Positions 679-64,000 of a stretch of 64,000 bases of DNA are shown here, in pieces (position 1 is the first letter of the stretch; each line of letters opens with the position of its first letter). The stretch comes from Allacma fusca (lineage: Eukaryota > Arthropoda > Collembola > Symphypleona > Sminthuridae), in the NCBI GenBank assembly GCA_947179485.1, contig OX359245.1, positions 77,115,067 to 77,179,066 of the forward strand, read 5' to 3'. The position numbers and the translations under genes are program-made. Below the pieces are notes generated by a model. The model was given only the letters and a program-made list of their open reading frames with translations, had not been told where the DNA came from and did not search any database.

Positions 679-2856
679 CTATGCTACAAGGTGTGCAAAA
701 AAAGTTCTTGTTATCTCTAAACCAAGTACCCCTATGCCACCCAACCACATGTAACCAATTAACCAAAAAACAATGGAAATATTCGAATTTTCAAGAGACA
801 ATGCTTCAAAGTCTTTAACAGTAATCTCACTACGCAGTTGTTCTTTTGCTCGTTTGTGAAATCGGTTATTAAAAATGTTGGCCCATTTATCCCACAATCC
901 CAATATTCCAGAAAATATAAGGGGCTTAAATCTCTCCAACGGCCGGTTTTTAAAAACGCCTGGTAATTCATCAAATTTCAAAAACAGCTGCTTACGAAGA
1001 AAACCATCGGAAACATGAAAGTTGTGATGGAAACGTTTGAAATTCGATAATTTGGATGCCCCAATGAAAAATTCCCAGTAGCCAATGAACTCGGATTCCT
1101 CAACAACAAGCGCTGTTTTGGGTTTTGAAAGTTGCGTGTTCAAGAACTCAAAACTCAGCCCATCTCCACAAATGTAATAGATTCTATTCAGCAAACCAAT
1201 AAGATATTTAGAATTGAGTTTATTTGTCATGGAAACTGATGGAATAGAATTGTAATTCGTAAAGAACTGATCCGCGATTTTGTCAATCAGAAGGCACCCA
1301 CTTTCAGTGCCGCAAACTATTTCGTTACGATCAAAAGTGCAATAGGATGTTCCAAGATGGGGATCAAATCCAGATTCTGACTTTTCTTGGTATATTTTTT
1401 CAAGTTCAATCCTGCTGTCCTGACAATTGCTTTCGTTTACAACAACGTAGAGGGTAAAGTTTTCCAGCTCTGTGAAATATTTCCATTTGGTTTCAAAAGG
1501 GTACCCAATAGCGTAATCCGATTTAGCCACGCCCTTGTAACAATTTGTCAACACGATCCCAGCAAACAACCAGCATGTACATATCATATAACAAAATTTC
1601 AGGAGCTGGAAGTTTTTCTTAGCCCTTCCTTTCAATGGTGTTTCACCATGACACTGTTCAAGTAAAACACCTACAAACCAAAGCGCATCGTATGACATTA
1701 CTGAAATCTTTGAAGGATTATTTCTGAACTCAAACAACAACAATACAACCCCAACGACCGCTACTAAAACGACTGTTGTTACGATTATAGCCCACCAGAC
1801 CTGTGGTTGAAAAGGTGCAAACAGCATGTATTTATTTTTTATACTGGCCACTGAATCGGATGTAATGAATTTGAAACCCTGTAAATATATATCCGTGTTT
1901 TCTAAATGGAAATAACCTTTGTATCCATGGCGTGCAAATACGTATTCTCCGATTATCGAATTTACTTTTGGTGTAATATACATTATTTCCTTGGATTTGA
2001 TGGACAAAGTGAAGTTTAAGCTTTGCCACAAATTCAAATATAATGCTTCCACAGCGCACATTAAATAGCCTAACTTAGGTGGGAAAGCATCCGTAACAAG
2101 AGATTTGCTGTGCAAGATTTTAAGGTCCATTGAATTCTCAAAAATATCAGCATATTCCAAAGACCAGTATATATTTTTACCATCTTCACTGGTATTAGGT
2201 ATTACTGTCTTTACAAGGTGTTTCCAAAACAGCGTGTCTGCCTCCATACTAATTGATTTGTACGGTTGCCATACTTTTGCTCGTTTTTTGGCACATAATT
2301 TGCATAGGAATGACCAATTTTCAATTGTATACATACGGTTCTGAATACTTGAAGTTGGTTTAGGATTTCCAAGGTTTATAAGGAATATTGGTGCAGAAAC
2401 ACGTGGGCCGATGTTCGGTTCAATCATGTGAATATTTGTAGTTGTTGTAATGATGAATGCAATTGAACCAGTATTGACAGAAATCATGCCTTCCAGTTTC
2501 GCCCCAACAGAAACAACCATCATAGCACATGATGCCTGAACCAATTTTGGCACGTTTTTGTGGATATTCGAACTCCCACCTGTATAAACTGGTTGTAGCT
2601 CCACTGCTATTCTAAGAGGATTATGTAATCGTACTGTGGGAGTGACTATGTCTATTAAATCATTTGTAAGTTCGAAGATTTCTATCACACAGAAAGGAAA
2701 ATTGGAAAGAATGGTCGTTAAATCAGCGATTCCGAAATTTGTATTTTCAATCCTTTGATATTTTGTGTAGATGTCGGATTGCAAAAACGTAAAACAGTTT
2801 CTTACTTGAACCTGTGTTGGAATTAGAAGAATGAGGTAACGCACGAAGAAGAACAT
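679..2856 (-). CDS. Divergent ionotropic receptor (intact, single exon)
   Basis: A 725-residue open frame without introns, starting at an ATG. It has a hydrophobic leader (residues 1-18), a long extracellular region, a first membrane segment (about 355-377, WWAIIVTTVVLVAVV), a re-entrant pore-like segment (about 386-402, ALWFVGVLLEQ), a second membrane segment (about 414-440, ending GIVLTNCYKG), a second extracellular lobe of about 250 residues, and a last membrane segment (about 693-717). This order (S1, M1, pore, M2, S2, M3) is that of arthropod chemosensory IRs, which are ligand-gated cation channels related to ionotropic glutamate receptors. The LTNxYKG motif at the end of M2 is where the family's gating motif lies. 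I see no conserved glutamate-binding signature, so the ligand is unknown. It is one of two fully intact IRs here. Family assignment is by architecture, not by database search. Confidence 0.85.
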   Translation of the reverse strand: MFFFVRYLILLIPTQVQVRNCFTFLQSDIYTKYQRIENTNFGIADLTTILSNFPFCVIEIFELTNDLIDIVTPTVRLHNPLRIAVELQPVYTGGSSNIHKNVPKLVQASCAMMVVSVGAKLEGMISVNTGSIAFIITTTTNIHMIEPNIGPRVSAPIFLINLGNPKPTSSIQNRMYTIENWSFLCKLCAKKRAKVWQPYKSISMEADTLFWKHLVKTVIPNTSEDGKNIYWSLEYADIFENSMDLKILHSKSLVTDAFPPKLGYLMCAVEALYLNLWQSLNFTLSIKSKEIMYITPKVNSIIGEYVFARHGYKGYFHLENTDIYLQGFKFITSDSVASIKNKYMLFAPFQPQVWWAIIVTTVVLVAVVGVVLLLFEFRNNPSKISVMSYDALWFVGVLLEQCHGETPLKGRAKKNFQLLKFCYMICTCWLFAGIVLTNCYKGVAKSDYAIGYPFETKWKYFTELENFTLYVVVNESNCQDSRIELEKIYQEKSESGFDPHLGTSYCTFDRNEIVCGTESGCLLIDKIADQFFTNYNSIPSVSMTNKLNSKYLIGLLNRIYYICGDGLSFEFLNTQLSKPKTALVVEESEFIGYWEFFIGASKLSNFKRFHHNFHVSDGFLRKQLFLKFDELPGVFKNRPLERFKPLIFSGILGLWDKWANIFNNRFHKRAKEQLRSEITVKDFEALSLENSNISIVFWLIGYMWLGGIGVLGLEITRTFFAHLVA

Positions 2857-5060: not shown

Positions 5061-7302
5061 ACGGCGGTAGCTGACGCCGCCCTACGTGAAGCCTCAAATT
5101 ATCGCGTAGGAATGATGTTTTGACTTGAAAGGTTTAGTAAAACTTGAATAACTTGATTTTTGAGACAATAAATCCATACAATTATATTAAAAAGGAATCC
5201 GACAGTTGAAATCACAAAACTTAAGGCACCATGAAGCATGCATTTTTTCACGAAGAATGAAACATTATCCCGGGTAAACATGTCTCCGAAGAAACGTCTG
5301 CCAATCTCTAAACCAAACACCGCCAAACAACACAACCACCCATAAATAATCAATAAAAAGACACGGAAAATATTGGAATTCCCTAACGACAACGCTTGAA
5401 AGTCCTTTACATTAATGTCTTTATTTAGTTCTTCTTGTGCGTTTTTGTGAATTCGGTTGATGTGAATTCTGGCCCATTTATCCCACAATCCCAATATTCC
5501 AGAAAACACAAGGAGCTTAAATCTATCTAGCGGTCGGTTTTTAAAAATACCTGGTAATTCATCAAATTTTAAAAACAGTTGATTGGGAAGGAAACCATCG
5601 GAAACATGAAAGTTGTGATGGAAACGATTCAAATTTGGTAATTTGGCCGCCGCAATGAAATATTCCCAGTAACCAATGAACTCTGATTCCGCAACAACAA
5701 GCTCTGTTTTAGGTTTTGAAAGTTGCAAATTCAAGAACTCATAATTAAGTTCATTTCCACAAATGTATTAGATTCTATTCAATAAATCATTAAGACATTG
5801 TGAATCGAGTTGCTCTTTCTCGGAATTTGCAGAGAGACTCGCCAAGATATTTTCGTTGATTTTGTCAAACAGCTGACACCCACTATCAGGGCTGCAAACC
5901 ATTCTGTTACGTGCAAAATTGCAATAGCTTGCAATTAGGTGTGGATTGAATTTTTCCCCAAATTTCAAATTTTTTCGGGATATTTCTTCCAGTTCGGTCC
6001 TTCTGTTGTGGCAATTGCTATTGTTAACAATCAGATAGAGTGTAAAGTTGTTCAGCTCTGTAAAATATTTCCATTTCGTTTGAAAATGGTATCCAATCGA
6101 GTAATCCGATTTATTGACGCCTGTATACGAATTTGTCAACACGATACCCGCAAATAACCAACATGTACAAATAATATAACAAAATTGTAGGAGCTGAAAG
6201 TTTTTCTGGGCTTTCCCTCTCAATGGTGTTTCACTATCACACTGTTCAACTAAAACGCCTACAAACCAAAGTACATGATACGATATCTCTGAAGTCATTG
6301 GAGCATTGTTATTGTTGTGCATATAAGAGCCCACTCTAGAGAAGGTTGAAAGTCTGCTTATTTTCTTTGAATAGTCTACTTATTTTTGATACGGGTGACT
6401 GAATCCGCTGTAATAAATTTAAATCCACGGAAATATATGCCCGTGCTCTGTAAATCAAAATAACCGCCGTTACCAAAAGGTAAAATTGCATACTCGCCGT
6501 TTACGAAAGTTATACTTGGTACACTTGATTCCGGGACTGTTTCAACAGAGTGAAATTCAAACTTTGCAGCAAATTCAAATACAGCGCTTCTGCGGTGCAT
6601 ATTAAATAGTCGAATTTAGGCGGAAAGGCATCCGTAACAACGGATTTTCTTTGCCACTCTTTATCAAGCATTACTTTCTCGAAATAATCAGCATATTGCA
6701 AAAACCAGTAAATATTTTTACCGTCTTCACTAGTACTTTGTATTACAGTCATTAAAAGGAGGTTCCAAAAGCGGCTATCTGTCTCCATACTATATGTTTT
6801 ATACGGATGCCATACTTTGCTTGGCTGTATTGCACATGACACGCACAGGTATGCCCAATTTTCAATTGTGTATACTTTGTTTGAAGGATTTATTTGGGAG
6901 TTTATAACCGTGTTATAGTTTCCCAGGTTTATAAGAAATATTGGTGCGGAAAAGCGGAGGCCAACCTTATTATCAATTATTTCTGTTTCTTGATGGTGTA
7001 ACGCTAAATGCAATTTCGTTATTTACTGAGACTGGATCTTCAACGACCCAATCGATGATTTCCAGTTTGTCACCTACTGTAACAATATGGACGGCACAAG
7101 ATGTTTGAGCCAGTTTTAGTACAGTGTTGTGGAGGTTCCTCTCATCCATATAAGGAGGCTTAAATTGCGATGTTATCCGAACAGTATTTTATAATCGGAC
7201 TGTGGGGGTGACAACGTCAATGTGATCTTGTGTAAGATCGAAGAAATCTATTAAACAGGAAGGAAAATAAGATAGGATGGGCGTCAAATCACTGCTTCCA
7301 AA

Positions 7303-27916: not shown

Positions 27917-28519
27917 TCAAGCAAAACGTCTCCACGAAAATACAAAGAAGTTTTCTCCGGTTACCATGAATCCCAGAAAATATCTGACAGACTGCAACAA
28001 AAAAACGAAACAACCCAACCATCCGTAAAGAATTAACCAAAAAACAATGATAATACTGGAGTTAGCCAATGACAACGCTTCAATGTCTTTTACGTTCCTG
28101 TCATTATTTAGTTGCTCTTGTGCGTTTTTGTAAATTCGGTTGCTGTGAATTCTGGCCCATTTATCCCACAGTCCCAATATGCCTGAGAATAAAAGGCGCT
28201 TAAATCTCTCTAAAGGACGGTTTCTAAAAATGGTGCTAAAATTGTCGACTTTTAAGAACTGCTTATAACGAAGGAAACTATCTGCAATATGAAAGTTGTG
28301 GTGGAACCCTTTCATATTTCGTGGTTTGGTTGCCCCAATAAACAATTCCCAATATCGAATGAATTCGGATTCCATAACCACCAGCGCTGTTTTGGGTTTC
28401 GAAAGTTGCGTATTCAGGAACTCATGATTCAGCTCAACTTCACAAATGTAATACATTCTATCCAGTAAATCATTAAGATAATCTGGATCGAATTGATTTC
28501 CTATGAAATGGGAAGGCAG
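27917..28519 (-). pseudogene. Ionotropic receptor 3' fragment (unit copy 1)
   Basis: An open frame of 179 codons (27917-28456) encodes only the last part of a receptor: YYICEVELNHEFLNTQLSKP, GILGLWDKWARI and the last membrane segment. Homology to the paralogues extends to about 28519, still in the second lobe, and then stops abruptly. M1, pore and M2 are missing, so it cannot form a channel. It has a longer C-terminal tail (GENFFVF) than its neighbours. Confidence 0.8.
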
Positions 28520-28806
28520 TAGTTGTAAAAGTCAGGCTTTAGGGAGATTCAAATTGTTTGGCGGGAACCAGTGCCGCTAAAAAAGGGCGCGCAATAAATT
28601 CAAATTTTTTTTGCGCAAACCACGCCCCCCCCTTAAGCCATTCATAAAAATAAAAGTTAATCAATTGAATTAATAACGCCCTGTATTAAAGTATTTCCTT
28701 GAAACTGTTTATTAATCTTTACATCATTTTATGTATCGTATTATAATTTATTTAATTTAATCGGAACACATTATTCAGCCTTTTTGAATATAATTTTTAA
28801 ATAGAA
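28520..28806. other. Spacer with short GC-rich block
   Basis: About 290 bases between a receptor fragment and the last exon of the membrane-protein gene copy. Near 28560-28635 it contains GGGCGCGC and CACGCCCCCCCC in otherwise AT-rich DNA. This may be a transposon relic; I could not define ends. Confidence 0.35.
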
Positions 28807-38878: not shown

Positions 38879-39481
38879 TCAAGCAAAACGTCTCCACGAA
38901 AATACAAAGAAGTTTTCTCCGGTTACCATGAATCCCAGAAAATATCTGACAGACTGCAACAAAAAAACGAAACAACCCAACCATCCGTAAAGAATTAACC
39001 AAAAAACAATGATAATACTGGAGTTAGCCAATGACAACGCTTCAATGTCTTTTACGTTCCTGTCATTATTTAGTTGCTCTTGTGCGTTTTTGTAAATTCG
39101 GTTGCTGTGAATTCTGGCCCATTTATCCCACAGTCCCAATATGCCTGAGAATAAAAGGCGCTTAAATCTCTCTAAAGGACGGTTTCTAAAAATGGTGCTA
39201 AAATTGTCGACTTTTAAGAACTGCTTATAACGAAGGAAACTATCTGCAATATGAAAGTTGTGGTGGAACCCTTTCATATTTCGTGGTTTGGTTGCCCCAA
39301 TAAACAATTCCCAATATCGAATGAATTCGGATTCCATAACCACCAGCGCTGTTTTGGGTTTCGAAAGTTGCGTATTCAGGAACTCATGATTCAGCTCAAC
39401 TTCACAAATGTAATACATTCTATCCAGTAAATCATTAAGATAATCTGGATCGAATTGATTTCCTATGAAATGGGAAGGCAG
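38879..39481 (-). pseudogene. Ionotropic receptor 3' fragment (unit copy 2)
   Basis: Duplicate of 27917-28519; same 179-codon open frame and same truncation. Confidence 0.8.
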
Positions 39482-39768
39482 TAGTTGTAAAAGTCAGGCT
39501 TTAGGGAGATTCAAATTGTTTGGCGGGAACCAGTGCCGCTAAAAAAGGGCGCGCAATAAATTCAAATTTTTTTTGCGCAAACCACGCCCCCCCCTTAAGC
39601 CATTCATAAAAATAAAAGTTAATCAATTGAATTAATAACGCCCTGTATTAAAGTATTTCCTTGAAACTGTTTATTAATCTTTACATCATTTTATGTATCG
39701 TATTATAATTTATTTAATTTAATCGGAACACATTATTCAGCCTTTTTGAATATAATTTTTAAATAGAA
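39482..39768. other. Spacer with short GC-rich block (unit copy 2)
   Basis: Duplicate of 28520-28806; no gene. Confidence 0.35.
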
Positions 39769-49809: not shown

Positions 49810-50433
49810 TCAGAAAACGTTTGGCAAGATCAAGCAAAACGTCTCCACGAAAATACAAAGAAGTTTTCTCCGGTTACCATGAATCCCAGAAAATATCTGA
49901 CAGACTGCAACAAAAAAAACGAAACAACCCAACCATCCGTAAAGAATTAACCAAAAAACAATGATAATACTGGAGTTAGCCAATGACAACGCTTCAATGT
50001 CTTTTACGTTCCTGTCATTATTTAGTTGCTCTTGTGCGTTTTTGTAAATTCGGTTGCTGTGAATTCTGGCCCATTTATCCCACAGTCCCAATATGCCTGA
50101 GAATAAAAGGCGCTTAAATCTCTCTAAAGGACGGTTTCTAAAAATGGTGCTAAAATTGTCGACTTTTAAGAACTGCTTATAACGAAGGAAACTATCTGCA
50201 ATATGAAAGTTGTGGTGGAACCCTTTCATATTTCGTGGTTTGGTTGCCCCAATAAACAATTCCCAATATCGAATGAATTCGGATTCCATAACCACCAGCG
50301 CTGTTTTGGGTTTCGAAAGTTGCGTATTCAGGAACTCATGATTCAGCTCAACTTCACAAATGTAATACATTCTATCCAGTAAATCATTAAGATAATCTGG
50401 ATCGAATTGATTTCCTATGAAATGGGAAGGCAG
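49810..50433 (-). pseudogene. Ionotropic receptor 3' fragment (unit copy 3)
   Basis: Duplicate of 27917-28519, but one extra A in the run at 49912-49919 changes the frame after the last membrane segment. The tail becomes FFVAVCQIFSGIHGN and so on, and the open frame is 186 codons. The N-terminal truncation is as in the other copies. Confidence 0.8.
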
Positions 50434-50720
50434 TAGTTGTAAAAGTCAGGCTTTAGGGAGATTCAAATTGTTTGGCGGGAACCAGTGCCGCTAAAAAAGG
50501 GCGCGCAATAAATTCAAATTTTTTTTGCGCAAACCACGCCCCCCCCTTAAGCCATTCATAAAAATAAAAGTTAATCAATTGAATTAATAACGCCCTGTAT
50601 TAAAGTATTTCCTTGAAACTGTTTATTAATCTTTACATCATTTTATGTATCGTATTATAATTTATTTAATTTAATCGGAACACATTATTCAGCCTTTTTG
50701 AATATAATTTTTAAATAGAA
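50434..50720. other. Spacer with short GC-rich block (unit copy 3)
   Basis: Duplicate of 28520-28806; no gene. Confidence 0.35.
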
Positions 50721-53422
50721 TCAGTCTTTGTAATTAATTTGTTTACGCGGTCGTAATATCATTGCTGCAGAACGTATGGTATTATTTTCCGAAATATGGC
50801 TGGCTGATGAATCGACAGTTGGAACGTAAGTACTATCGTATTCATGTGTACTTCTGGTCGGCGTTACGGAATAGTTTGACCCAAATGAAGTGCTGTTGGA
50901 TTCGTTACTTGCTTCTGAGTCTAAAATAAAAAACAACAGGTTAGTGTTTTAGCATAATTAGCCACCTGAATATATGGGGCAGAATATCCAACTTACATTG
51001 ACTTACAGTATCATAATGTACAACCTCTTCTAAGTCAATACTGCTTTCTCGAGGGATAGCCCTATTCCTATTGCAACACATTCGTAAACATTCTGGAACA
51101 ACGTAATTCCTTCTTGCTTGATATCGTGTTTTGTGATAGTAACACTTGTACAATCGAAATCCCAGGAATGCGACGAATATACCAATTATGGGAATCGTTA
51201 TCCATAAATAAACTAGAAAAATGCAAAACAATTTAAACATTATACATCGGAAAACCTTTTAAATGTTCTTTAGATTAGTCGGATTGTTAGATATTTGTAA
51301 GCATAACTTACGTTTGTACCCGAACAGCTCTAGTTCAATGAATTCCGTCCGATTCTCCAACCACTTCCCAATTTCTTTGGGCAAGAGGTCCTCAGGACAC
51401 TTTTTTGAAAATTGTCGTCTTCGCAATCCATGTACAACCTCAGATGTTGCTACACAATTCCGAGATTTATTTGCAAATTCTACATAAATGCATCCATTAG
51501 TTATGCAGTCTGCACAATCCAGTTGAGAGCTGCATCGTTTATCCCCTCTGTAAATTACCAATTAATAGGAAATCAAAATATTGTGATTTTTATCACTAAC
51601 ACAAAAAAATGTCATATGACTAAAAAAGTAAAAATCCTTACTCCGCTTCAAACATTGGAACACTCAAATCCAATTTGGCTAGGAAAAGAATAATCAATCC
51701 TTTACAAATCGTCGCTGTCCAGGATCCCCTATGCCTATAGCGCCTTTCGGTGTCAGCTTTCCGAATCTTCCGTACGATTTTATCAATCTTGATTAAGGAC
51801 GAAATTGCAAAATCTAATTTTTGCAGCGCCAATCCCGCCGCTAAATCATCAGGAAAATCTATGAAAGAAAAAAACCAAATAAATCTTCGCTGAAAAAAGC
51901 AAACAAATCTTTCGCTGCAAAAATATATACATAAAATCATACTTGCAGCTGTTTAGTTTATAAAGTGGTGAACTGAACGGAACTAGCCATTATTTGTATA
52001 GTTTTTCAAAGAAAATTAATCACTCATTTTGTGAAAACCATGATTCAGTCAAAGTTCAAAGTCAGTTATAAAAATAAATCATCATCATCAATCATCATGT
52101 GTATTAATTAACGAAATTATTAACGAAAGTAGGTAGTGAATTGAACGGAACTACGACTGGTTTTGTGCAAAGGGAACTGAACTTAACTGAACGGCATGAA
52201 ACATTTTTGGGTTGTGATTGAAACTGAATTTCAATTTTTGCCCTAAAACTACAAGTATGCATAAAACACAGAATCAATAAAAATCCCAGTATTATCTCAC
52301 CCTCAATTAGGAAAGAAGTATCCTGCTTAGCCCTCTTGAAAACACTAGCTTTTTTACACAGGGGCGTATAACCCAAATCCTATGTACAGAAAAAACACGG
52401 GAAAAAAGTTTTTTTACAATTAAAGGATCATAAGTTACTAATTACATTTAGTCCTTACAATTTTGACAGACAAGTTCGATGATTGTGCAATTGATCCTTC
52501 CGAAGTGACAATTCTTCAGAAAACAAAATATTTTCTCTCTGTTGTAGCTTCACCATATTCAATTGTTTCTGCATACAGTAGGCAGGCCATGATTCAAGAC
52601 TCTGACTTGTCACAGTTCCTTTATAGTTTGTAGAAAAACTCCAATCGTACCGTATTTCACCAGGAAGTGGTCCAACATTCATAATTCTGGATTTTACAAA
52701 TATTTTAAGGATAAAATTTTCCCATTCACACGCAATCGTTTACTTACAAAAAAACATAACAAAGAAACGTCCCTTTAAAAACTTACTGAGCTGGCTTCCA
52801 TTCGTCTGCGAAAGTCCCATGAACATATTCTGGTGAAATTAATTTGAGACCATCAAAGGCATTGGACTCAACAGTAAGATTGGATTCACCGAATGTCAAC
52901 AGGTGTACATTATCCGGGAAGATTAATTCCGGTTGATGAGTGATGCTAAGTTTCGAATTGTACCTAAAACACATATATACATCATAAATCCCAATCATCA
53001 ATTAAAAATCATTTTGATACTCTCGCTGTCAATGCACTCTAGTCCAGAATCAAACTGAATCCTGCTCACCTACAGACGTGACATACGTCAGGTTGACTTT
53101 TATTTTCTCCCCCCAACGAGCCATTCCCACTACAATTCGCTTGTAAGTCAGAAGATTCCACAATACATGAGTCCGTCAAGTCCTTATTTAAGTGGTAGCA
53201 GTAGCAGCTGGACGGTAAAATACTACTTTTGGTAATTGCTATAGGCCACCCTCCGAAATTGTAATATTGGTTGTTTCTAAATCTCCGTGTGACTTCCCCT
53301 TGACGATTGGCAACTACATCTTGGGTAGGACTTTGGCCTGTTGTCAGCTCCGTACTCATCTTTACCCCGTAATTCACTGAACCAAAGCAATATGCTCCTA
53401 ACACTCCAGAATTCTGTATACT
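50721..53422 (-). CDS. Single-pass membrane protein with Cys-rich ectodomain, multi-exon (function unknown)
   Basis: Exons in transcription order: about 53422-53070, 52963-52787, 52686-52459, an exon ending at 52301 (5' end 52379 or 52344), 51858-51642, 51547-51312, 51212-50997, 50920-50721. GT-AG sites fit, and phases agree for all joins I checked except within 52686-52459, where a one-base frameshift near 52511 seems needed. The ectodomain has many Cys and N-glycosylation motifs (NCS, NLT, NKS, NRT). Near the membrane is a compact Cys cluster (CSSQLDCADCITNGC...C) resembling a plexin-semaphorin-integrin (PSI) module. One membrane segment follows (YLWITIPIIGIFVAFLG), then a basic Cys-containing stretch and a Ser/Thr-rich tail. 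The first exon with a signal peptide is not resolved; a hydrophobic stretch near 53440-53490 is a candidate. I do not recognise the family. Confidence 0.55.
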
Positions 53423-53486
53423 CTAAAAATGACGATTTCGAATGACAATAAGATTTCCAAACACTACTGCCACAATCCACAGCCAC

Positions 53487-55670
53487 AGTACTAAGACAAT
53501 TGTGACTTAGTAATTTGCTGAATTAATACAGCTCAAATATGACTATAAAAGTACAGGAACTTTCGAATTAATTTTAAATTGAGAACTACACATGAATATA
53601 GACATGTACTGAACACTGAACTTCCTTGAGTTGAGTTGTGGAGTGTTTATTGGTTTTAGGACTATTTAGTGCTAAAAAATTAGTTGGCACTGAACGTGTG
53701 AGTGTGCATAGTAAGGTTTTATGTAGCACAACATCCTTCAGGTTTTGAATTGAAATACCCCCAAGCAAGGATGGATTCAATGTTGACGCTCCTTTTGTAT
53801 TCATATTCCTCCCAAAAATCCACTGCCTCGCTTGCATTTACAAAATTCGATAGTAATGTTATTTAGAGCTGGAGCATGTAAGAACATGAGTGCACCTTTT
53901 GATGTGTGAGATATAATCAAAACTTTATGCTTGAGTTCTATGTAAGGTCATAACTCTAGGAGAAATGCAATTCATTTTTACGGAGTACTCCGTATATGTG
54001 AGCTTTTAGTTTCACTGTATACATACATACATATATCTATACATAGGTATGAATGCTGCTACAACAACAGCTGTTCAGAGTCTCAGAGAGTATTAAGTAA
54101 TATACAGCCTTACTGAGCTTTGGTCTAGGTCTTGATGCATTTTTAGTAACTAGGTGTTACAGTCATTGTAGTCAGGGTCACATATAAGAAAAGCGGTTTT
54201 TCTCTAATTAGTGTTGTATTTGTTGATATTTCTCCCCACAATAGTCTGGATGCTGAGAATCCCTATTAAATTACATTAATGATCGTTGGCAGAATAAAAT
54301 CTGGAATTGCTAGCCGCAATAAAATTTCATCTTCATTCTCTCACAGTAATAGTCTTTTAAACGAAGGAATTATGACACGTGCTGGATGTGCCTAGCCAAG
54401 CAAATAACAGCGAGTGTAAAAATATATAAATTAAATTAGAACAAATACCAAAAAAGGAGTTGATTCATGTCAGTGTAAAAATTCTTAGTCCTATATCATT
54501 TACAAAAACGATTAGCGGATATTAAAAGAGGTAAATGCAAACTGAGTAGGATTACTAGGTTTTTAAGTTAACTAACTGGGTGGGATTTCTAAAAATTTTA
54601 CCTTAATTTTGTACCTAAAAAAATCACCTCATTGTTAGTACCGTGTATTCTTTCACTAAATCCAAATATTTGTGCATAGGCTGGAAATCCCTGAGAAATT
54701 TTGTCCTGATGGGGTATAGGAGTAGCAGCAGGAGTAGGAAGAGTATGAGCATGTACAGTAGTTCCATGGATGGCGTGAAATTGGAACCGTCTCCAAGTAT
54801 GTATATGTATATACACGATCGGGGGGATTTACTCCAGCAAGACATTTTCTACCTCAATTGAGGTAGTGCACCCTCACAAGCTATTCCACTGTATTTTTTG
54901 AATATGAGCCCAAACATATATGCACATATGCGACACATAGAAAACCATTGTGAGTGAAGCAAGTGACAAAATTCAACCAGATTAGTATTTGCTTTACACG
55001 TAATGTTAACTCCCTGGAATGTTTTTTTGATGGTGCTGCTCATTTATAAAGGATTGGATTTCATATACAGATAGGCTAATAAGTGTCGCTTTTTAACGAG
55101 AGTCAGTGTATTAAAAATCTGCAACTCAAGTATCTACAAATGATTTCATCAAATTCATGCATGCATTGTATGTATTAGCTATTGTACCCATTGAAATAGA
55201 TGATACAAAAAATACTACAAACATGTCAGGAACGAATCAACATATGAATAATGAGAATGTAATCAAACCTGTTTTCTGCAGACGCAGCGTCTAGTCGTCT
55301 GAATAATTAATTCTGACCGGAGGCAACACAGTTTTGCAATGTGTAAAGAGCAAAGCTTTTATTACCATCACATTTTACAAAAGAACAAAAAAATCACTAA
55401 AATAAAGGAAGCTTGATATGAATTATCGTCTCCTGATACAATTTTAAAAATTAAATCGAGATAAAATAAGATACCCAAATTTTTTTGAATTCTAAAATCT
55501 TCAAAAATGAAACAAAAATGTTTTTCCTTTCTGAGGAGATAATATAATAATTAAAAATAATTGAATTAAATATTTTATATGTAAATATATGAGAAAATTC
55601 TGCTAATAATTACTAATTTGTTGCTAGTACGTATAATTATATACCCCCCGCAACTGCAATAAAGTTATAT
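53487..55670. other. Intergenic spacer
   Basis: About 2.2 kb with no convincing gene. It has TACATACATATATCTATACATA-type simple sequence near 54020-54050 and a short palindrome ACGGAGTACTCCGT near 53979. Open frames at 53586-53837 and about 54600-54860 have no recognisable motifs; the latter overlap on both strands, which argues for chance. Confidence 0.45.
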
Positions 55671-56844
55671 TTAGGTGGAATGTTTCGCAATGAAACGCAA
55701 CCATTTGGTTAAGAATTTGCACTTTAGGGGTTTACCGGCTACAGGGCTGCCTTGATTCCATTTCATTAGAGACGGTCCATAGCATTTATTTCCGTGCTGC
55801 AGGATTTTCCCATACACCTGGCATGCTAAATAATACACGCTGTCCTCTGCCCTGAGTTTTGCTCGTATTTTAATCTTGGCACCTGAAAAAAGAATATATT
55901 AAAGATACTTGCACGCAAATAGTTTATGATCATGTCAGTACTTTATGCTTGAGTCAATCTGAATAAAAAATGCAATAATTTGCATACAAAATAGGATATA
56001 TGTAAATACCTTTAGTGTCTTTAAACGGGTTGTTGTCATTCCATTTCGTATACGTAAAGGGTCCAACTGATTCAATAAACCATTTCAATGTAGCGTGTAA
56101 ATTGGCGGACATTCGTTTGATTTGCTTACAGTTTTTTTCTTGAAATTGTGTAGTCGCGTGAACAGGCCTAGTTGTTACAGAGTCACTAATTATTATATCA
56201 GCAGATTTCACAGTAATTTCTGAATTCATTATGCTTGAAGTTAATGAGTCCAAAAAAACTACAGGGAGTTGTGTAGAACTTGATGTTGGTAACGTTGTTG
56301 GGAATTCTTTGGGGTTTGAGTCTTGAGGTATTGTTGTAATGGGCTGGTAAGTAACAATTTCAAAAAGAGGCGATTTTTGTGGCACTGGAGATGTATCGCT
56401 ACTTGACAAAGGATATTCAGTTGAAACCTGTGAGGATACTGCTGTTGTAATTTCTTCTTGCAATGAATCTTGAAAAATTGTTGTTGTGATACCATGGGGG
56501 GTTGTAACTTCAAAGATGGGTTTTATATGTGATTGTGTATAGACACTTTCAGTCTTTGAAAACAAGCCCATTATTTTTTCACTTGTAGTTGTTGCTGTTG
56601 ATTGCTCCTTTAAAAATTCTGTAGTTGTTGCTAGCCGATTCTTCAAACTTTTGTGAATCATTAGACAGGATCGTAAAGAGTCCGCGGATAAAAACCCAGA
56701 ACCAGATTTTTGACCACAAGTAAATTTTGAAAGAGACTGGTCAACTTCAAATATGTGGCCATTTTTTACGCAAATCCTACAGTCTTGAAATATAGCACTT
56801 GTAGTTGGAACAATAGACAGCACAATTAAGTAAATAACCAACAT
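55671..56844 (-). CDS. Secreted mucin-like protein, two exons
   Basis: Exon 1 is 56844-56010, intron 56009-55883 (GTATTT...TTTTTTCAG), exon 2 is 55882-55671; the join is in phase and gives 348 residues. Residues 1-17 are a signal peptide (MLVIYLIVLSIVPTTSA). A short Cys-bearing segment follows (CRICVKNG...CGQK), then about 160 residues rich in Thr, Ser and Pro with repeated ITTTI/TTIPQDS-like phrases, expected to be O-glycosylated. The C-terminal about 110 residues hold Cys and Trp (KWFIESVGPFTYTKW, LACQVYG, KCYGPSLMKW) and look like a folded domain that I do not recognise. Likely a secreted or surface glycoprotein. A TATAAG lies about 28 bases before TTCATTTC upstream, as in the four genes to the right, so it may belong to the same element. 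Confidence 0.65.
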
Positions 56845-57009
56845 TGTGAATGCTCGGATGATAAAACGGAAATGAATATGAGTTACATCGCAGTGCTTAT
56901 AATTTCAAAAACTGATGATGTTTCAAAAAATGTTAGAGAGTCAAATCATCGGCTTGAGCTAGATAGCTTTTTTCGGCAACACAATCTGGAACGTCCGATT
57001 GTGATTTAG
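56845..57009. promoter_or_regulatory. Putative core promoter of the mucin-like gene
   Basis: Reading the minus strand: TTATAAGC at 56902-56895, then TTCATTTC at about 56876-56869, then the ATG at 56844. The spacing of about 28 bases matches a TATA box and initiator. Weak alone; it gains weight because neighbouring genes have the same arrangement. Confidence 0.35.
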
Positions 57010-57699
57010 TCACACTTGCATATGTAGCTTTAATTGCCTCTGGTTGTAATGCGAAATCTGTAGTTTTTTTGGAATATGTCGTGAAGTTCCATGAGGGCAG
57101 TCACATTCATCGGATCGAGCTCTAGAATTATTTGAGGCATTAACATCTTTAACGACGAATTGCACTAAACGGATAGGGGCTTGATTTTCCTTTATGGATG
57201 AACCCCCATGAGGACAATCGCACTCATATTTGTAAGACATTCGCATTGCAACTCTTGGGTCGGGCTTTGAAATTCGTGGGTCTGTCATAGATCGGCCGGC
57301 CACACGGTCTGTTTGATCGTTTTCATCTATTTTACTACACGAGCATTTCATTACATCAGGCGAAATTTGATTACAATTATGTTTGCGTTTCGTTTTTACA
57401 CGATCCGTAAAACAGCGGTTACAAAGTCGATGAGATCGAAGGTGCTTGAATACATAAAAATATGTATTCACATAAGGCATTTTAAAAATCATTTCAGAGT
57501 ACAAAGTACCAGAAATTCTTTCTTGTATAGAAATTGGTACCTTGATTTCACACCAGTTAGCTAAATTTTCAAAATCTAAACATATTTCATTTTCATTGCA
57601 TGTTTCCACTTTGTCGCAATTTTCATTTACTTGTTTTTTGAAATTTCTGGTTCTAAGGGAGAACCTGTATCCGCATGAGCAACAATAGGTGGAAGTCAT
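57010..57699 (-). CDS. Cys-rich protein with paired CDCPHG motifs (unknown function)
   Basis: A 229-residue single-exon frame from ATG. Cys pairs at the N-terminus (YCCSCGYRF), in the middle (LCNRCF) and further on (MKCSCSK), plus two copies of ECDCPHG / CDCPHGT about 45 residues apart, suggest zinc binding. A conserved-looking stretch (residues about 45-90, WCEIKVPISIQERISGTLYS) lies between. There is no signal peptide or membrane segment; the basic C-terminus suggests a nuclear or nucleic-acid-binding role, but this is inference. It is divergently transcribed from the gene at 58378 across a repeat-built intergenic region. Confidence 0.6.
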   Translation of the reverse strand: MTSTYCCSCGYRFSLRTRNFKKQVNENCDKVETCNENEICLDFENLANWCEIKVPISIQERISGTLYSEMIFKMPYVNTYFYVFKHLRSHRLCNRCFTDRVKTKRKHNCNQISPDVMKCSCSKIDENDQTDRVAGRSMTDPRISKPDPRVAMRMSYKYECDCPHGGSSIKENQAPIRLVQFVVKDVNASNNSRARSDECDCPHGTSRHIPKKLQISHYNQRQLKLHMQV

Positions 57700-57705
57700 T
57701 TTTAG

Positions 57706-57743
57706 AAATGATGCTGTGTTTGATTTTAGGCTGCCTTTTTATA
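57706..57743 (-). promoter_or_regulatory. TATA box and initiator of the Cys-rich gene
   Basis: Minus strand TATAAAAAGG at 57743-57734 followed after about 30 bases by GCATCATTTC (57715-57706), a few bases before the ATG. Same layout as the other genes at this end. Confidence 0.55.
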
Positions 57744-57774
57744 CAAATTTTTCATATAAAAAAATGTGTTCAGA

Positions 57775-58300
57775 GTATTTGCATACTAGTATTTTATAAT
57801 ATCATTTGCATACTGGTATTTTATTAATATTTGAAAACGACATATTTTAAATCAACGTTTGCTTACCGATAGTTTTTATAATAACTACAAACGTTCGTTT
57901 TTTTGTGAACCAAATATGTATATACTTTAATTTATATGGTTCATGAAAACGTTTTATTGTTTCAGCAAATCGTTTGTGCAATAATTATCAACAAACCGGT
58001 TTGCAGTCAAGGTCATTGATTATATTTAAAGACGAGGAGTATTTGCATACTAGTATTTTATAATATCATTTGCATACTGGTAGTTTAGTAATATTTTAAA
58101 ACGACATATTTTAAATCAACGTTTGCTTACCGATAGTTTTTATAATAACTACAAACGTTCGTTTTTTGTGAATCAATTATGTATATACTTTAATTTATAT
58201 GGTTCATGAAAACGTTTTATTTTTTCAGCAAATCGTTTGTGCAGTAATTATCAACAAACCGGTTTGCATTCAAGGTCATTGATTATATTTAAAGAAGAGC
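57775..58300. repeat. Two tandem 264-base copies forming a divergent intergenic region
   Basis: Unit 1 is 57775-58038, unit 2 is 58039 to about 58300, with scattered base changes. Each starts ATTTGCATACTAGTATTTTA, has a second ATTTGCATACTGGTA 27 bases on, then CGACATATTTTAAATCAACG, GCTTACCGATAG, ACAAACGTTCG, and ends CCGGTTTGCA and GATTATATTTAAAG. The whole lies between two genes transcribed away from it, so it probably carries shared promoter or enhancer elements. Confidence 0.85.
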
Positions 58301-58309
58301 AATGGAGGG

Positions 58310-58339
58310 TATAAAAGGCAAACAATTGCCAATTCAGCT
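58310..58339 (+). promoter_or_regulatory. TATA box and initiator of the small acidic gene
   Basis: TATAAAAGG at 58310-58318 and TCAGCT at 58334-58339, about 40 bases before the ATG at 58378. A typical arthropod core promoter layout. Confidence 0.6.
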
Positions 58340-58377
58340 TAGTACCAATTTCTGTGAAACGATAGTAGCAGCTTAAA

Positions 58378-58929
58378 ATGGAGAGACACAATCAGTCCCC
58401 TTCTTCTCCAGTTAGTAATTCTAACTTGGAAGAATTGAATAATACAATAATGGAAGCTCTACCGATTCCGTTTTCTCCAATATCTCTACCCGAGGCATCT
58501 TATTCATCCGAAATAGACAAAATCCTGCAGTGGTTAGATTTGGAAGCCAAAATTCCTGGTATTACAGTTTTCAAGACCTTAAATAATTCAATTCTTAATT
58601 TCCATATTAATATTCATAATTATTTATTGTTTGCAGAAAACTCTATCGACGAACCAATGGATACAACATTTAACTTGGATCAAAAACCGGTGTGGGGACG
58701 TGAAATTGAATTAAAGAACAAATCCGACCCAGTGCCAGGAACGGATACCATGTCGATTAATCAAGAAGCGCTACGTATTTTGCAAAAAAGATGCGAAAAA
58801 CTTACAGATGAAATGGAACTAATGAAAAGCCAAATGTTATTTTTAATAACATCCTGGAATCATAATTTAATGTTAGCTGTAAACATAATGTATATGATGC
58901 ATAATCGAAAAGATGATACAATGAAATAA
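58378..58929 (+). CDS. Small protein with C-terminal coiled coil (unknown function)
   Basis: A 183-codon frame. Ser/Asn-rich N-terminus, then short hydrophobic-proline stretch (ALPIPFSPISLP), a helix (IDKILQWLDLE), and a C-terminal heptad-like segment (EALRILQKRCEKLTDEMELM) leading to a hydrophobic end rich in Met. An intron of 78 bases may lie at 58559-58636 (GTATTA...TTTGTTTGCAG after a pyrimidine-rich tract); it is a multiple of three and open, so both spliced (157 residues) and unspliced products keep the frame. The AT-rich, Asn/Ile-rich protein segment it encodes looks like intron, not protein. The family is not recognised. Divergent partner of the Cys-rich gene at 57010. Confidence 0.55.
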   Translation: MERHNQSPSSPVSNSNLEELNNTIMEALPIPFSPISLPEASYSSEIDKILQWLDLEAKIPGITVFKTLNNSILNFHINIHNYLLFAENSIDEPMDTTFNLDQKPVWGREIELKNKSDPVPGTDTMSINQEALRILQKRCEKLTDEMELMKSQMLFLITSWNHNLMLAVNIMYMMHNRKDDTMK

Positions 58930-59861
58930 AACAATTTAAAACCAAGCTTTTTGTTTACCCATGTTTTATTAACATATTATTTATAGAAACATTATAAAAT
59001 AACACCAATGCAAATATTAGGTTCGTTTGCAAATGTGTTCCATATAAAAATGTGAAGCGTAAAACACTCGTTTCAATGCAAGCAAACTTACACTTTAAGA
59101 CCATTAAAATCATTTTTGAAGATTTTCGTTATTTATTAAGTTTCATGCAAACGTCTATACTGTGAAAGATTTTGAGTTCATTGCGGAAATAAGACATTGA
59201 TCAAAATGGTTTGAAATAAATTTTATGTTTTTGAAATAAGTTTTCTGCTTGTCTTAGGCTTATGAGAACTTTTGGAAATCACATATATCTTTACCATGAT
59301 TGTTTAGAATATTTAATGCCTTAAAATAAATTATTTGTGTAATGACAATACACGATGATGCTAACACTTGGTTAGTATTATCGTTTTTAGATTTTAAAAA
59401 CATTTTTTAAATAATTGTATACTATTGTAACAATACATGTTTAATGTTTTTAAAATCGGTTTATTCATTTTTTTTCGTTGTTTGGTATTTTTAGATAAAT
59501 TGTTATATAAACGTTTAATCCATGAACGATATTTCTAAGTCGAATTTGTGTTATAATTATTTAAATTTTTCTGGCTGAGACAATAATATACTGTCCTTGT
59601 AAACTGATTCAATTGCACAAATGTATGTTTTTAAAGTCTCAAAGTTCATAGTTGGTTAGTATTGTCGTTTCAGATTTTAAAGATAACTGTTGAGATAAGT
59701 TTATACTAAATAATTAGTAAAGCGATACATATTTAATTTTTTTGAATTTTTTTATTCATTTTTTGGAGTTTTTAATGTTTTGCAGATTTTTTTATAAACG
59801 TTTAACCCATATACGATAATTCTAAGTCACAGTTGTTTTTCGTTAATTATAATTATTCAAA
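58930..59861. other. Spacer between convergent genes, with duplicated 3' region
   Basis: Very AT-rich. Bases about 59368-59650 are an older copy of 59652-59965 (spacing about 285-300 bases). The copy includes a decayed version of the last coding bases of the neighbouring gene (CTGGCTGAGACAATAATA and following). No other gene seen. Confidence 0.65.
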
Positions 59862-60716
59862 TTAGTTTTCTGGCTGAGACAATAATACACTGTCCACGTA
59901 AAATGACTCAATTGCAGAAATGAATGTTTTTAAAGTCCCCACGTTCATAGAAATTGAAGGTCCTTTCCACACACCATTTGTTCCAATATATTCTTGATCG
60001 CTTTTTCGTTCACGCAAAAACACTACGAAGTAATTGTATTCATTTGAAATTTCAGGCCGCACCTAAAATTTAGAGGGAAACATGAGTTTAATTTAATGAC
60101 AAACAGAAAGTAATTTAATAACCAAAACAATATTTTAAAAAACCTTGACTCTCTTGGAATTCGTTTGAAAACAAGTGTCATTGTTCCAAACGTTTTTGGA
60201 CTTCTTTGATAAGTGGGCCAAAGCTGGGAAATCTCGAAGAGATTTAATAATTTCTCCTTTTGGGCAAGCAAGAATTTCGGTCTTAATTTTTCTTAAATAA
60301 CGCAATAATGTAGGTGCATCCGTCACTGGGAAACTTATTCGAGACGCTGGATATCTTCGACCGTTATTTTTCATAAAATGTATGTAAAATCCAATATCCT
60401 CTGAGTAAGACATTCGAATTTTTATTTTGCCGAACGACTTTACGCCTGGAGATGTCCAGAAACCTTCCACTGTCGGGTCTTGTATGGGGTCAATCTTTTC
60501 AACATCTATGTTTTCTTTCGAAGCTACAGTTTTGTGCTTTAATACTTCTATAAATTTGGGGGGATAATTATTTTCAACCAAAATTTTTTCCATCTCTGTA
60601 GATAGTTCTAGCTCAGATTCCAATAATTTGCGCAAAATGTTGTTAATATCAGCTTTAATGCTGGACGTTTGTAAAACCTCTGAGACCTTATGTTCGTCAA
60701 TATTTGTTGGTTCCAT
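59862..60716 (-). CDS. Two-exon protein with two similar beta-rich modules (possible ssDNA-binding, unproven)
   Basis: Exon 1 60716-60144, intron 60143-60063 (81 bases), exon 2 60062-59862; the join is in phase, giving 257 residues. I start at ATG 60716 (MEPTNIDEHK) and not at the upstream in-frame ATG at 60794, because a TATA box and initiator lie between the two. The first about 90 residues are helical and charged. Then come two modules of similar shape: one with GKIKIRMSYSEDIGFYIHFM...RISFPVTDAPTLLRYLRKI, one in exon 2 with YNYFVVFLRERK...ISMNVGTLKTFISAIESF. Each is a set of beta strands ending in an amphipathic helix. This loosely resembles PC4-like or similar single-stranded-DNA-binding folds; that is speculation from pattern alone. 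It is divergent from the DNA polymerase gene, which would fit a replication role. Confidence 0.6.
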
Positions 60717-60724
60717 TTTAGCAA

Positions 60725-60759
60725 GTGATGACTCCAAAGTTTGGGAGGCTGATTTTATA
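60725..60759 (-). promoter_or_regulatory. TATA box and initiator of the two-module gene
   Basis: Minus strand TATAAAA at 60759-60753 and TCATCAC at 60731-60725, 28 bases apart, just before the ATG at 60716. This decides the choice of start: the open frame upstream would be untranscribed. Confidence 0.55.
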
Positions 60760-60867
60760 CAAAATTCGAAGGTTATTAGAATAAGAAAAAACATAGGTCA
60801 TATGTTTAGTTAAGCATTTGCATACTGGTTGTTCATGTAATAATTGGAAAACGCGCAATTTTTTTTT

Positions 60868-61200
60868 GCGAACAAAATATTTGCATACTCGTTTTTAATA
60901 TAGTAATCGAAAACGTTTTATTTTTTGCGAACAAAATATTTGCATACTCGTTTTTAATATAATCGACAACGTTTTTTTTTTGCGAACAAAACATTTGCAT
61001 ACTCGTTTTTAATATAATCGAAAACGTTTTATTTTTTGCGAACAAAATATTTGCATACTCGTTTTTAATATAATCGACAACGTTTTTTTTTGCGAACAAA
61101 ACATTTGCATACTCGTTTTTAATATAATCGAAAACGTTTTATTTTTTGCGAACAAAACATTTACATACTTGCTCTTTATATAACAAATAAAAAACGCATG
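60868..61200. repeat. Six tandem repeats of 54-59 bases between divergent genes
   Basis: Repeats start with GCGAACAAAA at 60868, 60927, 60982, 61038, 61092 and 61148. Each continues (T/C)ATTTGCATACTCGTTTTTAA, then TATAATCGAAAACGTTTTAT and a T run. The last copy has ATTTACATACTT. A further ATTTGCATACTGGTT lies at 60816. The block sits between the two-module gene and the polymerase gene. It is a likely bidirectional promoter/enhancer array. Open frames across it are repeat artefacts. Confidence 0.9.
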
Positions 61201-61298
61201 GTTTTTTATAAACGACAAAATCGTACAGAGATCGTATAACTGGGCGCGGTCCATTTCCATTGAATATATAATTTTTTGACCACACCTAAGAAACGCAG

Positions 61299-61334
61299 TA
61301 TATAAAGCCCCAGCGCTGGCATAGGATTCATCAC
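61299..61334 (+). promoter_or_regulatory. TATA box and initiator of the polymerase gene
   Basis: TATATAAA at 61299-61306 and TCATCAC at 61328-61334, 29 bases apart, followed by the ATG at 61344. Confidence 0.6.
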
Positions 61335-61343
61335 ATTCTCAGA

Positions 61344-64000
61344 ATGTCTTCTGAAGAGCAACCCAAGCTGGGTGCAGTAACTAGGAGTCGGGCCAGACGA
61401 AATATAATTCCATGTACAATGAATGATTGCAATATGATATTTGCTTCAAGAAAATTAATGGCAAAGCATGTAGATAATAAGCATTTTTGCGCAGATTGTG
61501 ATAGTATGTTTTCAGCTATTGAATTACATGAACGCGAAAAGAAAGGGCAGAAGGATTTTTCTGAAGGTCCTAAACCAAATGATATTAAGAACAAATTGTT
61601 TGTTCAATATTATTCTGGTCACCATGGTTGCATTACAATTTTTAGACATACTGCCAGCAAAACGTTTAGCCTGTTGGAATCATTTTTGGATTACATCTAC
61701 AATGATCTGATATATTTGCTTAAAGACCTGCTTGTAATTTATAAAGGATTTAAATGCATACTTAAGCTAAAATGTGAGAAGAAGATGATGAAGATTCTAA
61801 AACTCACGAAAAGTTTAACACATATTTCTCACACCCTTACGTTACGCTGGTTAACACCGAAAGCATTGAAACCTTTCCGTATTACGCAGGGGCACTAATA
61901 ATGGAAACCTTGTCTAAATTTTCTCAACGATCATCTGGCTATTTCCTCTCCACAGTGGTTTTTGCGGATATTATGATAGGAAAATATGAACCCTTAGCCG
62001 GCGGAGCAAAAGGGCATATAACATTACCAGATACTTTAAGGTATAAGCGAGGTTGCATTAACATAATAACAAATTCTAATCTTTGTTTTCTGTACAGCGT
62101 AGCATGCAGTCTTTACAACGAAGAAATAAAACGTGGTAAAAAGAATGCTGCTAATTAGGCTAAATACGTCAAACAATTTTATACTAGCATGCTAACATTT
62201 CCTGTCTCGATAGATCAAATTGAAGCTTTTGAATCCGCAAATTCAATTTCCGTTAGTGTATTTCAGCATGATGAAAGGTCGATTTCGCCATTAAAGCTAT
62301 CGTCTACCAATTTCAAAAACCATGCTCTGTTGTTATTAACACAATCCGAAGGTAACTCACACTTTATTGCTATTACTAATCTAGGGCAGTTAATTCGTGT
62401 TAAATCTACAAATTCAAGCATGGTTTGCCCGAAATGTTTTTTAAGGCTTAGAAACAAGACTTCTTTAAACGATCATTTATTAGTGCATCATTTCAGTTCT
62501 GATGCTATATATTCATATCCTAAGAACAATTTCTTTACATTTACTAACTATTCGCATTTACAAAAATGTCCATATGTAATATTTTTTGATACAGAGAGTC
62601 TTATTTTACCCTGCAGTACTGATGATTTTTTCGAGAATCAAAAATCTAGGCAACAAAATAGTTTGCATTTTAAAAACGTAAAACGCCGAAAACTTACTCC
62701 TGTTAACGCTAATCATACTGAGTTTAAAAGTAAGTTAGAAATTTGTGGATACTGCGTAATACTACTTGGTTTAAACAATAAGATTGTAAAACGAGAAACG
62801 TATTTTGGTCAAAACGCTGGGCCGAAATTAATTAGCTGTATTATTAATTTTGGTAATTATGCTTTAAGTCAAATGAAAGAAACAAATTAAAAGATAGACT
62901 GCCATCACATGTTTTGCAAGAAATGAAAAACAAGCGATTGTGCCATTTTTGTGAGAAGGTAATATCCGATGAGGATTTTAAATCATGCCATCAAGATCAT
63001 GACCACTACACTGGTCAAATCCGTGGGTACACACATTCAAAATGTAACATGTTAGGCTTGTACCTGTTCTGTCCCATTTTGGAAGTGGTCATGATTTCTC
63101 GCATATAATCAGAAATTTGGACACAACTCTTATCAAAAATATTAATGTTATTCCTAGAACTTCTGAGCAGTTTATTGGCTTCATTTTGAATGGCAAATTT
63201 AAATTTCTTGATACGTTTGCGTTTCTATCAGAAAGTCTTGATAAGTTAGTAAAAATTTGAAATCGGGGGTAAGCGGAAACCAACTAGATGATAGATTTAA
63301 GTTACTACAGGAATTTTACCCAACAATTAATTCGGAATGTTTGCAATTGTTACAACATAAAATGCCATACCCATATGAATTTGTAACATCAATGGACGTT
63401 TTTAAAAGTGATGTAACGCTACCAGGGATTTCGTATTTTAATAATTCCTTAAAAAATGAAAAATGTAGTTTGAGCGATTATGAAACTGCTATTAAAATTT
63501 TTCAAAAGTTTGGTTGTAACAACTTTATGGATTTTAGTAAGTTGTACTGCGAGGTGGATACATTGTTATTAGCTTGCTGTTTCTTGAAGTATCGAGATAA
63601 TATGATAGAATCGCATAGGTTGGATCCGCTTCATAGTTTCTCAACTGCAGGTTACAGTTGGAATGCAGCCTTGTATTCTCTCAAGGAAGGCGTCGAATAT
63701 TTAAAATGCCCCAAAATGATTCAACTATTTAGTTCATTAATTCGTGGGGGAATCTGCGCTGTAACTGGTAGATACCTGAAAACCAATCACGAAAGATGTG
63801 GAAATTATGATCCAAAAAAACCTAGAATTTATGCAGCATGTCTTGATGTAAATTCTTTGTACGCACACTGTCTGATGAATTTTTTACCCACTAGAGATTT
63901 TCGATTTCAAAACGAGCACGAAATTAAAGAAACTGCAAAATTGTTTTTGAAAGAAAATCTTAATAACTTTGATTATTCTGGTACACATGATAAAGGATAT
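61344..64000 (+). pseudogene. Type-B DNA polymerase of Polinton/Maverick/adintovirus type (broken, runs off the window)
   Basis: Starts with a C2H2 zinc finger (Cys-x4-Cys-x12-His-x4-His, about 61402-61480), then the usual N-terminal region of such polymerases (SGY-phe, LP-lRYKRGCINI, a CF-like NLCFL block). A second Cys/His finger is near 62420-62490, the exonuclease motif FDTES near 62580, and a His/Cys motif resembling endonuclease VII (HQDHDHYTGQIRG...KCN) near 62985-63040. RGG near 63745 and the polymerase motif A (LDVNSLY) near 63845 follow. This is the PF03175-like, protein-primed class. Breaks: frameshift near 61785, in-frame stop at 62156-62158, and frameshifts near 62867, 63055 and 63248. 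After 63248 the frame stays open to the end, where the remaining palm motifs would lie. So it is a decaying copy, or a low-quality stretch of sequence. Integrase, ATPase, protease and capsid genes of such elements are not seen in the window. Confidence 0.85.

Follow-up and report, generated by a model that had tools for sequence, protein, structure and literature searches.

At the right end of a 64,000-nt stretch of the genome of the collembolan Allacma fusca (contig OX359245.1; the whole stretch is hereafter called the window), four compact genes are arranged as two divergent pairs, and the space within each pair is filled with tandem repeats that share a short motif. To what kind of genetic unit do these genes belong, and what could the repeats be for? 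An earlier note, made from the sequence of the window, had proposed that they form one end of an integrated virus-like or Polinton-like element with its own regulatory motif. The explanation presented here, in which we have high confidence, is that of an integrated Polinton/Maverick, with octamer-containing arrays that most likely act as promoters and with captured host DNA in its left arm.

An integrated Polinton and its copies

The limits of the element became apparent when the next 10 kb of the contig to the right of the window (L009; L009 8211 is 8,211 bases past the window end) were included. It is 21,780 bp long and goes from window position 50432 to L009 8211, the window holding 50432-64000. 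It starts with AGTAGT and ends with ACTACT, and has the pentanucleotide AAGGC on each side (50427..50431 and L009 8212-8216). The terminal inverted repeats (TIRs), at 50432..50543 (+ strand) and L009 8099-8211, form a 113-bp pair, 96.5% identical over 113 aligned bases. Both host flanks run on in an uninterrupted paralogue, at about window position 12905 in the same host gene array, which represents the empty site; the element interrupts one member of a host gene family. The TIRs, the duplication and the empty site thus bear out the Polinton-like end proposed in the earlier note, save for its position, since the left end is at 50432 and not near 55.7 kb. In the Polinton group, target duplications are of 5-6 bp. 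All five copies read at both ends had 5 bp (AAGGC, CATAC, GGAAC, TGGAA and CCGTC); a sixth, at C10:7.34 Mb, was read at the left end only.

The gene content points the same way. That one of the four genes encodes a DNA polymerase, as already suggested, was confirmed: it is a PolB (DNA_pol_B_2, PF03175) at 61344..64000 (+ strand), continuing in L009 1-1331. In the window copy it is interrupted and falls into separate frames (61344-61898, 61901-62158, 62189-62890 and 63257-64000), and PF03175 falls just below its 25.8-bit cut-off on the piece searched (24.9 bits, E=1.2e-5); the PolB of a sister copy is above it (28.4 bits) and also contains an Endonuclease_7 domain. Queried with a PolB piece and with the MCP-like protein (MCP, major capsid protein), IMG/VR gave no relatives. 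The integrase was identified in a sister copy (L013:1320-2099; Pfam rve, PF00665, E=3.1e-11) and is present as pieces in L009 for the window copy. By analogy with their families, the polymerase would be expected to replicate the linear genome from a protein primer, and the integrase to insert further copies of the element at other sites. Of what the earlier note expected further right, integrase pieces, ATPase-like and capsid-like genes and the partner inverted repeat were all found; the protease was not recognised.

Copies are present elsewhere in the genome. The one at C1:41.03 Mb is collinear, with BLAST identities of 98.2-98.8% in most blocks and 91-94% in the blocks of the 58.0-63.8-kb region. 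The C1:1.22-Mb copy is 87-96% identical in the main blocks, 76% around the first array (array A, see below) and 83% at the extreme left, and lacks window 51861-55255. Two further copies, at C1:4.48 Mb and C10:~138 kb, are older and have diverged; in the family that the first of them represents, almost all matched blocks are 69-81% alike. Deletion derivatives were also found: those at C8:4.70 and C8:71.45 Mb have common internal breakpoints and ~600-bp inverted repeats, and that at C10:7.34 Mb has the same breakpoints at 58064 and 61564/65098 and retains 55920-57443. Together they look like a non-autonomous subfamily. These derivatives (L033/L034, L035/L036 and L037/L038) retain parts of both octamer arrays.

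Ratios of nonsynonymous to synonymous divergence (dN/dS) between the window and the 1.22-Mb copy were lowest for the PolB C-terminus (0.10), the major capsid protein (MCP)-like gene (0.12) and the ATPase-like gene (0.13), followed by p219 (0.19), the integrase piece (0.21, with a stop in one row), the minor capsid-like gene (0.35) and p183 (0.37; 0.21-0.37 over comparisons). They were higher for p296 (0.59) and p229 (0.67), and reached 1.51 for the dUTPase exon, which has few synonymous changes; a membrane-protein exon gave 0.62. From these values, the core genes were under purifying selection until recently and the accessory genes evolve faster.

A few points weigh against the Polinton assignment. 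The ATPase-like open reading frame (ORF; L009:1454-2140) has by eye a Walker-type GPSQSGKS and was below the Pfam cut-off (best AAA_14, E=0.0047). The two capsid-like ORFs (L009 2687-4006 and 3996-5039) are in the expected place and had no Pfam match above cut-off, nor had the major one a PDB match; their identity is based on position and on one distant metagenome relative of the major protein. No cysteine protease was recognised among the ORFs scanned, which covered part of the frames. The target duplications are of 5 bp, as against the 6 bp described for vertebrate Mavericks (PMC8097293). The TIRs, the 5-bp duplication, the PolB and integrase in the expected layout, the existence of several copies and the purifying selection on core genes show that the element is an integrated Polinton/Maverick.

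Octamer arrays between divergent genes

The two divergent pairs are p229/p183, at 57010-57699(-)/58378-58929(+), and p219/PolB, at 60135-60716(-)/61344-(+); the reading frames and both arrays agree with the four-gene arrangement first described. The count given for the motif, ten exact copies and one variant, was also right: ATTTGCATACT starts at 57777, 57804, 58041, 58068, 60816, 60879, 60938, 60993, 61049 and 61103, i.e. all copies fall within 57777-58078 and 60816-61113, and the variant ATTTACATACT is at 61159. When one mismatch was allowed, 13 matches were obtained in the window against a mean of 2.9 in shuffled sequences, none of 100 shuffles reaching 13; two of them, at 6484 and 55978, are outside the arrays. 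Array A (57773..58299, + strand) consists of two 263-bp units with inner 27-bp steps and carries four ATTTGCATACT. Array B (60816..61183, + strand) is made of about six copies of a ~56-bp unit (the tandem repeat proper being 5.8 units at 60862-61183) and carries six ATTTGCATACT and the ATTTACATACT variant. The two blocks had been thought to differ apart from the motif, which is only partly right: they have in common a second word, GAAAACGTTTTATT (two copies in A, three in B), align over 167 bases with about 70.7% identity, and so are probably related. Tandem duplication inflates the ATTTGCATACT count; independent support for the motif comes from its retention in both arrays and in the diverged C1:4.48-Mb family.

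The core of the motif, ATTTGCAT, is the POU-domain octamer. It is the reverse complement of ATGCAAAT, which is described as bound by Nubbin in Drosophila, where a six-site Oct cluster governs CecA1 (PMC5851638). The earlier note did not foresee this identity, nor the deletion derivatives, the fragments of host genes or the position of the left end at 50432. Within the window the element contains 12 exact octamers, 10 of them in the two arrays. None is present in L009 1-8211, the right 8.2 kb in which the integrase, ATPase-like and capsid-like genes are found. By eye, a TATA box precedes each of the four array-flanking genes, about 37-68 bp before the start: at 57737..57743 (-) for p229, 58310..58316 (+) for p183, 60753..60759 (-) for p219 and 61299..61306 (+) for PolB. 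Because each array separates a divergent pair whose genes have TATA boxes, the arrays most likely work as bidirectional promoters for p229/p183 and p219/PolB. The octamer common to them would most likely be bound by a host POU-domain factor, and we infer from the sequence that such a factor may control the element. The lack of octamers in the right 8.2 kb would then probably set the replication and accessory genes apart as a single early regulon marked by the arrays.

The genome-wide distribution of the motif was determined with the 14-mer ATTTGCATACTNGT over the whole 393-Mb genome (91 contigs). It occurs 70 times (47 forward, 23 reverse), against 13 for a reversed control pattern; 51 occurrences are in 11 clusters and 19 are single. 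All 11 clusters were examined, four of them as 601-701 bases only, and in 10 the match to the element goes beyond the arrays. The eleventh, C12:42.96 Mb (601 bp), matches in the array only, which makes its assignment circular. At least one of the single 14-mers (C62:96418) adjoins a PolB fragment (C62:95764). The motif therefore clusters at copies of the element, as had been anticipated, rather than being evenly spread.

Alternatively, the arrays could serve mainly in replication, packaging or recombination, or be drifting minisatellites, with the octamer incidental and transcription secondary. The number of array units does differ between copies of the element, and across families much of the ~59-bp unit is conserved, not just the octamer. 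The comparison with the C1:41.03-Mb copy in 300-base bins is also pertinent: identity falls near the arrays, to 89-95% at 58.1-59.9 kb and 94-96% at 61.4-62.6 kb, most other bins being at 97-100%. Such a drop suggests recombination between lineages, and recombination at repeats could produce it. What this alternative leaves aside is that the arrays are placed exactly between divergent genes, each with its TATA box, and that the same 11-mer is kept in both. We consider it a real, if unlikely, possibility.

The promoter reading itself has to accommodate several observations that count against it. In the array upstream of PolB in the C1:4.48-Mb family, the motif is changed in 7 of the 14 units (7 ATTTGCATACT, 5 ATGTGCATACT and 2 ATTTCCATACT), which the recombination or minisatellite alternative would also account for. 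Two octamers of the element are outside the arrays, at 55978 and, on the minus strand, at 59008. The old C10:138-kb copy is without array A. No exact 14-mer was found near two PolB matches of the same family, one at C1:7.69 Mb (90%) and one at C5:52.85 Mb (98%, over a short piece), or near the PolB matches of the 42-55% sister families, so that only a part of one family may have the motif. Among the titles and abstracts of the best literature matches, none tied the octamer or POU factors to Polintons/Mavericks, a weak negative.

Bidirectional promoters thus remain our preferred function for the arrays. They could be taken further, into a scheme where a host POU/octamer switch, acting via a pair of bidirectional promoters made of tandem octamers, governs the replication genes of a Polinton family. 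The onset of replication would then be limited to tissues with POU activity (gut, immune or germline), and the left arm would serially sample fragments of host chromosomal genes. Taken whole, this scheme is speculative and we hold it to be distinctly unlikely.

Host DNA, accessory genes and the surrounding array

The left arm contains a fragment of a host TIPRL/TIP41 gene (52432..53778, - strand), made of the 5' flank and of exons 1-3 with their introns, and stopping just inside intron 3. Window 52458-52739(-) matches TIP41 (PF04176, E=7.4e-11) and a solved TIPRL structure (E=1.3e-7). The host TIPRL gene is at C12:24.024 Mb and aligns with the fragment along 1,431 bp (82%, gaps included). The fragment is found in both the window and the C1:41.03-Mb copies, about 99% identical and each with its own target duplication; being at two different sites, it was captured, as chromosomal DNA with introns, and moved with the element.

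Could it be functional cargo? TIPRL is described as an inhibitor of PP2A-type phosphatases (PMC4973239), and the exons of the fragment are open and, by eye, its splice junctions seem intact, so that a protein acting on PP2A might be envisaged. At aligned positions, identity to the host gene is 0.897 in the 5' flank, 0.890 in exon 1, 0.896 in intron 1, 0.836 in exon 2, 0.697 in intron 2 and 0.877 in exon 3. The exons are therefore no better kept than the flank and intron 1, though better than intron 2, and the fragment seems to drift. The host-window dN/dS values (0.52 for exon 1, 0.96 for part of exon 3) and a 7-bp deletion in exon 3 of the window copy relative to the host also argue against a functional product, as does the absence of the C-terminal half, which is tied to binding (PMC4973239). 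On these signs of neutrality we judge a role on PP2A very improbable; the fragment appears to be carried as a neutral passenger.

The 1.22-Mb copy holds, in the corresponding region, a CIN85-type SH3-domain fragment and other host DNA instead. CIN85 is called cindr in the fly, and we use this name for the fragment. Over 578 bp, and in non-coding DNA too, it is 92% identical to the locus of a cindr-type gene at C12:34.632 Mb; since the match starts with the first base compared there, the fragment may extend further. Through a ~8-bp overlap it joins a piece of 102 bp that has 88% identity to C1:44.572 Mb. As the cindr insert is in one copy only, it may be a later insertion. Host fragments in general could have entered resident copies after integration and never have been mobile with the element; the cindr fragment, known from C1:1.22M alone, would fit. 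The presence of the TIPRL fragment in two distant copies, which are about 99% identical and have target duplications of their own, makes this quite improbable as a general account, and says nothing against the cindr case. Capture and movement with the element thus stands for TIPRL. Among the best literature matches, none joined TIPRL to Polintons.

At the extreme left is a membrane-protein gene (50724..51952, - strand) in four frame pieces, apparently intron-bearing, with by eye a Cys-rich domain, a transmembrane helix and a tail; none of the pieces had a Pfam match above cut-off. A resemblance to PTTG1IP or the PSI domain was considered and dropped, in view of the Pfam result and of the lack of a PDB match for the exon tested. 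This left exon has 21 matches in the genome (99% to 40% amino acid identity), three of which are the triplicated host-array units described below; for five of them a PolB match is about 5-13 kb away, and in four cases this PolB belongs to a sister family. We infer that it is an old accessory gene of the Polinton clade rather than a recent capture.

The other accessory genes are as follows. At 55674..56844 (- strand), p296 is a secreted Thr/Ser-rich protein, mucin-like by eye, of 296 amino acids plus a possible second exon. The Cys-rich p229 (57010..57699, - strand) was assigned to no family, its best PHROGs match being at E=0.069 only. Both p183 (58378..58929, + strand), which has matches at four loci of the same genome, and p219 (60135..60716, - strand) had no homologue at E<=1 among about 5.8 billion proteins, in a single search for each. 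For p219, which in our reading likely starts at the second Met (60716) and has no family assigned, a two-row profile gave nothing credible against PDB (best E=0.089), and a single-sequence model had a mean pLDDT (the predicted local distance difference test score) of 45.9. A dUTPase (PF00692, E=1.2e-14), apparently intron-split by eye, is at L009 6648-7280.

The surrounding DNA (window 1-50427 and L009 8217-9869) is taken up by the host gene array, in which members of a multi-copy family follow one another in tandem; their proteins are up to ~740 amino acids long, and several members are broken. By eye we take these genes to be ionotropic-receptor-like; the one member submitted to Pfam (window 679-2856) had no match at E<=0.01. 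Window 19487-52362 contains three nearly unchanged copies of a ~10.96-kb unit of the array. Since each copy finishes with the leftmost ~1.9 kb of the Polinton, the duplication postdates the insertion and broke inside the element. It accounts for two extra copies of the left TIR, at 28518..28629 and 39480..39591 (both + strand).

Transposase pieces are nested in the 1.22-Mb copy (L011 1151-2352, of which 1960-2352 matches DDE_Tnp_4, PF13359, E=1.2e-10), presumably of the PIF/Harbinger type; transposase-like ORFs, hAT-like by eye, are nested in the C10:7.34-Mb copy (L038 2164-4371), the long one without Pfam match. In a census of PolB, 150 of 515 first-look candidates were scored and gave 151 matches. 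Among those listed, many other Polinton-type matches are 28-39% identical to the window PolB, dozens having ~1,300-amino-acid open frames. The element belongs to a small family, in a genome that is thus rich in apparently intact polymerases of other Polinton families.

Relation to known systems

To our knowledge, the expression of Polintons in animals, and the tissue where it takes place, are poorly known. A dense, repeated site for a host factor between divergent replication and accessory genes would make this question directly testable. Likewise, the TIPRL fragment and its parent-type gene in the same genome, about 10% diverged in the flank and intron 1, make capture and movement of host DNA by a Maverick measurable at the DNA level.

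With animal Polintons/Mavericks (P1_DY of Drosophila yakuba, PMC6431247; vertebrate elements, PMC8097293) the element has in common PolB, the rve integrase, the ATPase-like and capsid-like genes and the TIRs. As in vertebrate Mavericks, for which an (AGT)2//(ACT)2 end-motif class is described, it has such ends and accessory regions, and its 21.8 kb is inside the 12.7-24.6 kb given for intact copies (PMC8097293). It differs by its target duplications of 5 bp instead of 6 bp, the apparently intron-bearing accessory genes, the octamer arrays and the lack of a recognised protease. Among Polinton relatives linked to insects, the Drosophila-associated adintoviruses (PMC8363768) also have PolB and integrase, together with a capsid and an FtsK-like ATPase, but are 13-15 kb long with a virion-maturation protease, and the parts of that source drawn on here mention neither an array nor a captured host gene.

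The closest parallel to the arrays is the cluster of Nubbin/Oct sites near the CecA1 promoter of Drosophila; there the gene is a host immune gene and binding is shown (PMC5851638), whereas the arrays of the element are known from sequence. As for the cargo, capture of host genes by Mavericks is already in print: nematode Mavericks carry host gene families, which spread between species (Widen's work, as summarised in PMC10680173). Here, host-type DNA is similarly aboard a Maverick, but as a truncated, apparently neutral, intron-bearing fragment with a donor-type gene in the same genome, and such capture at the DNA level is the raw step behind the nematode cargo transfer (PMC10680173). Two features are new: the paired intergenic regions with octamer arrays, and the capture of host DNA that still has its introns and appears to be neutral.

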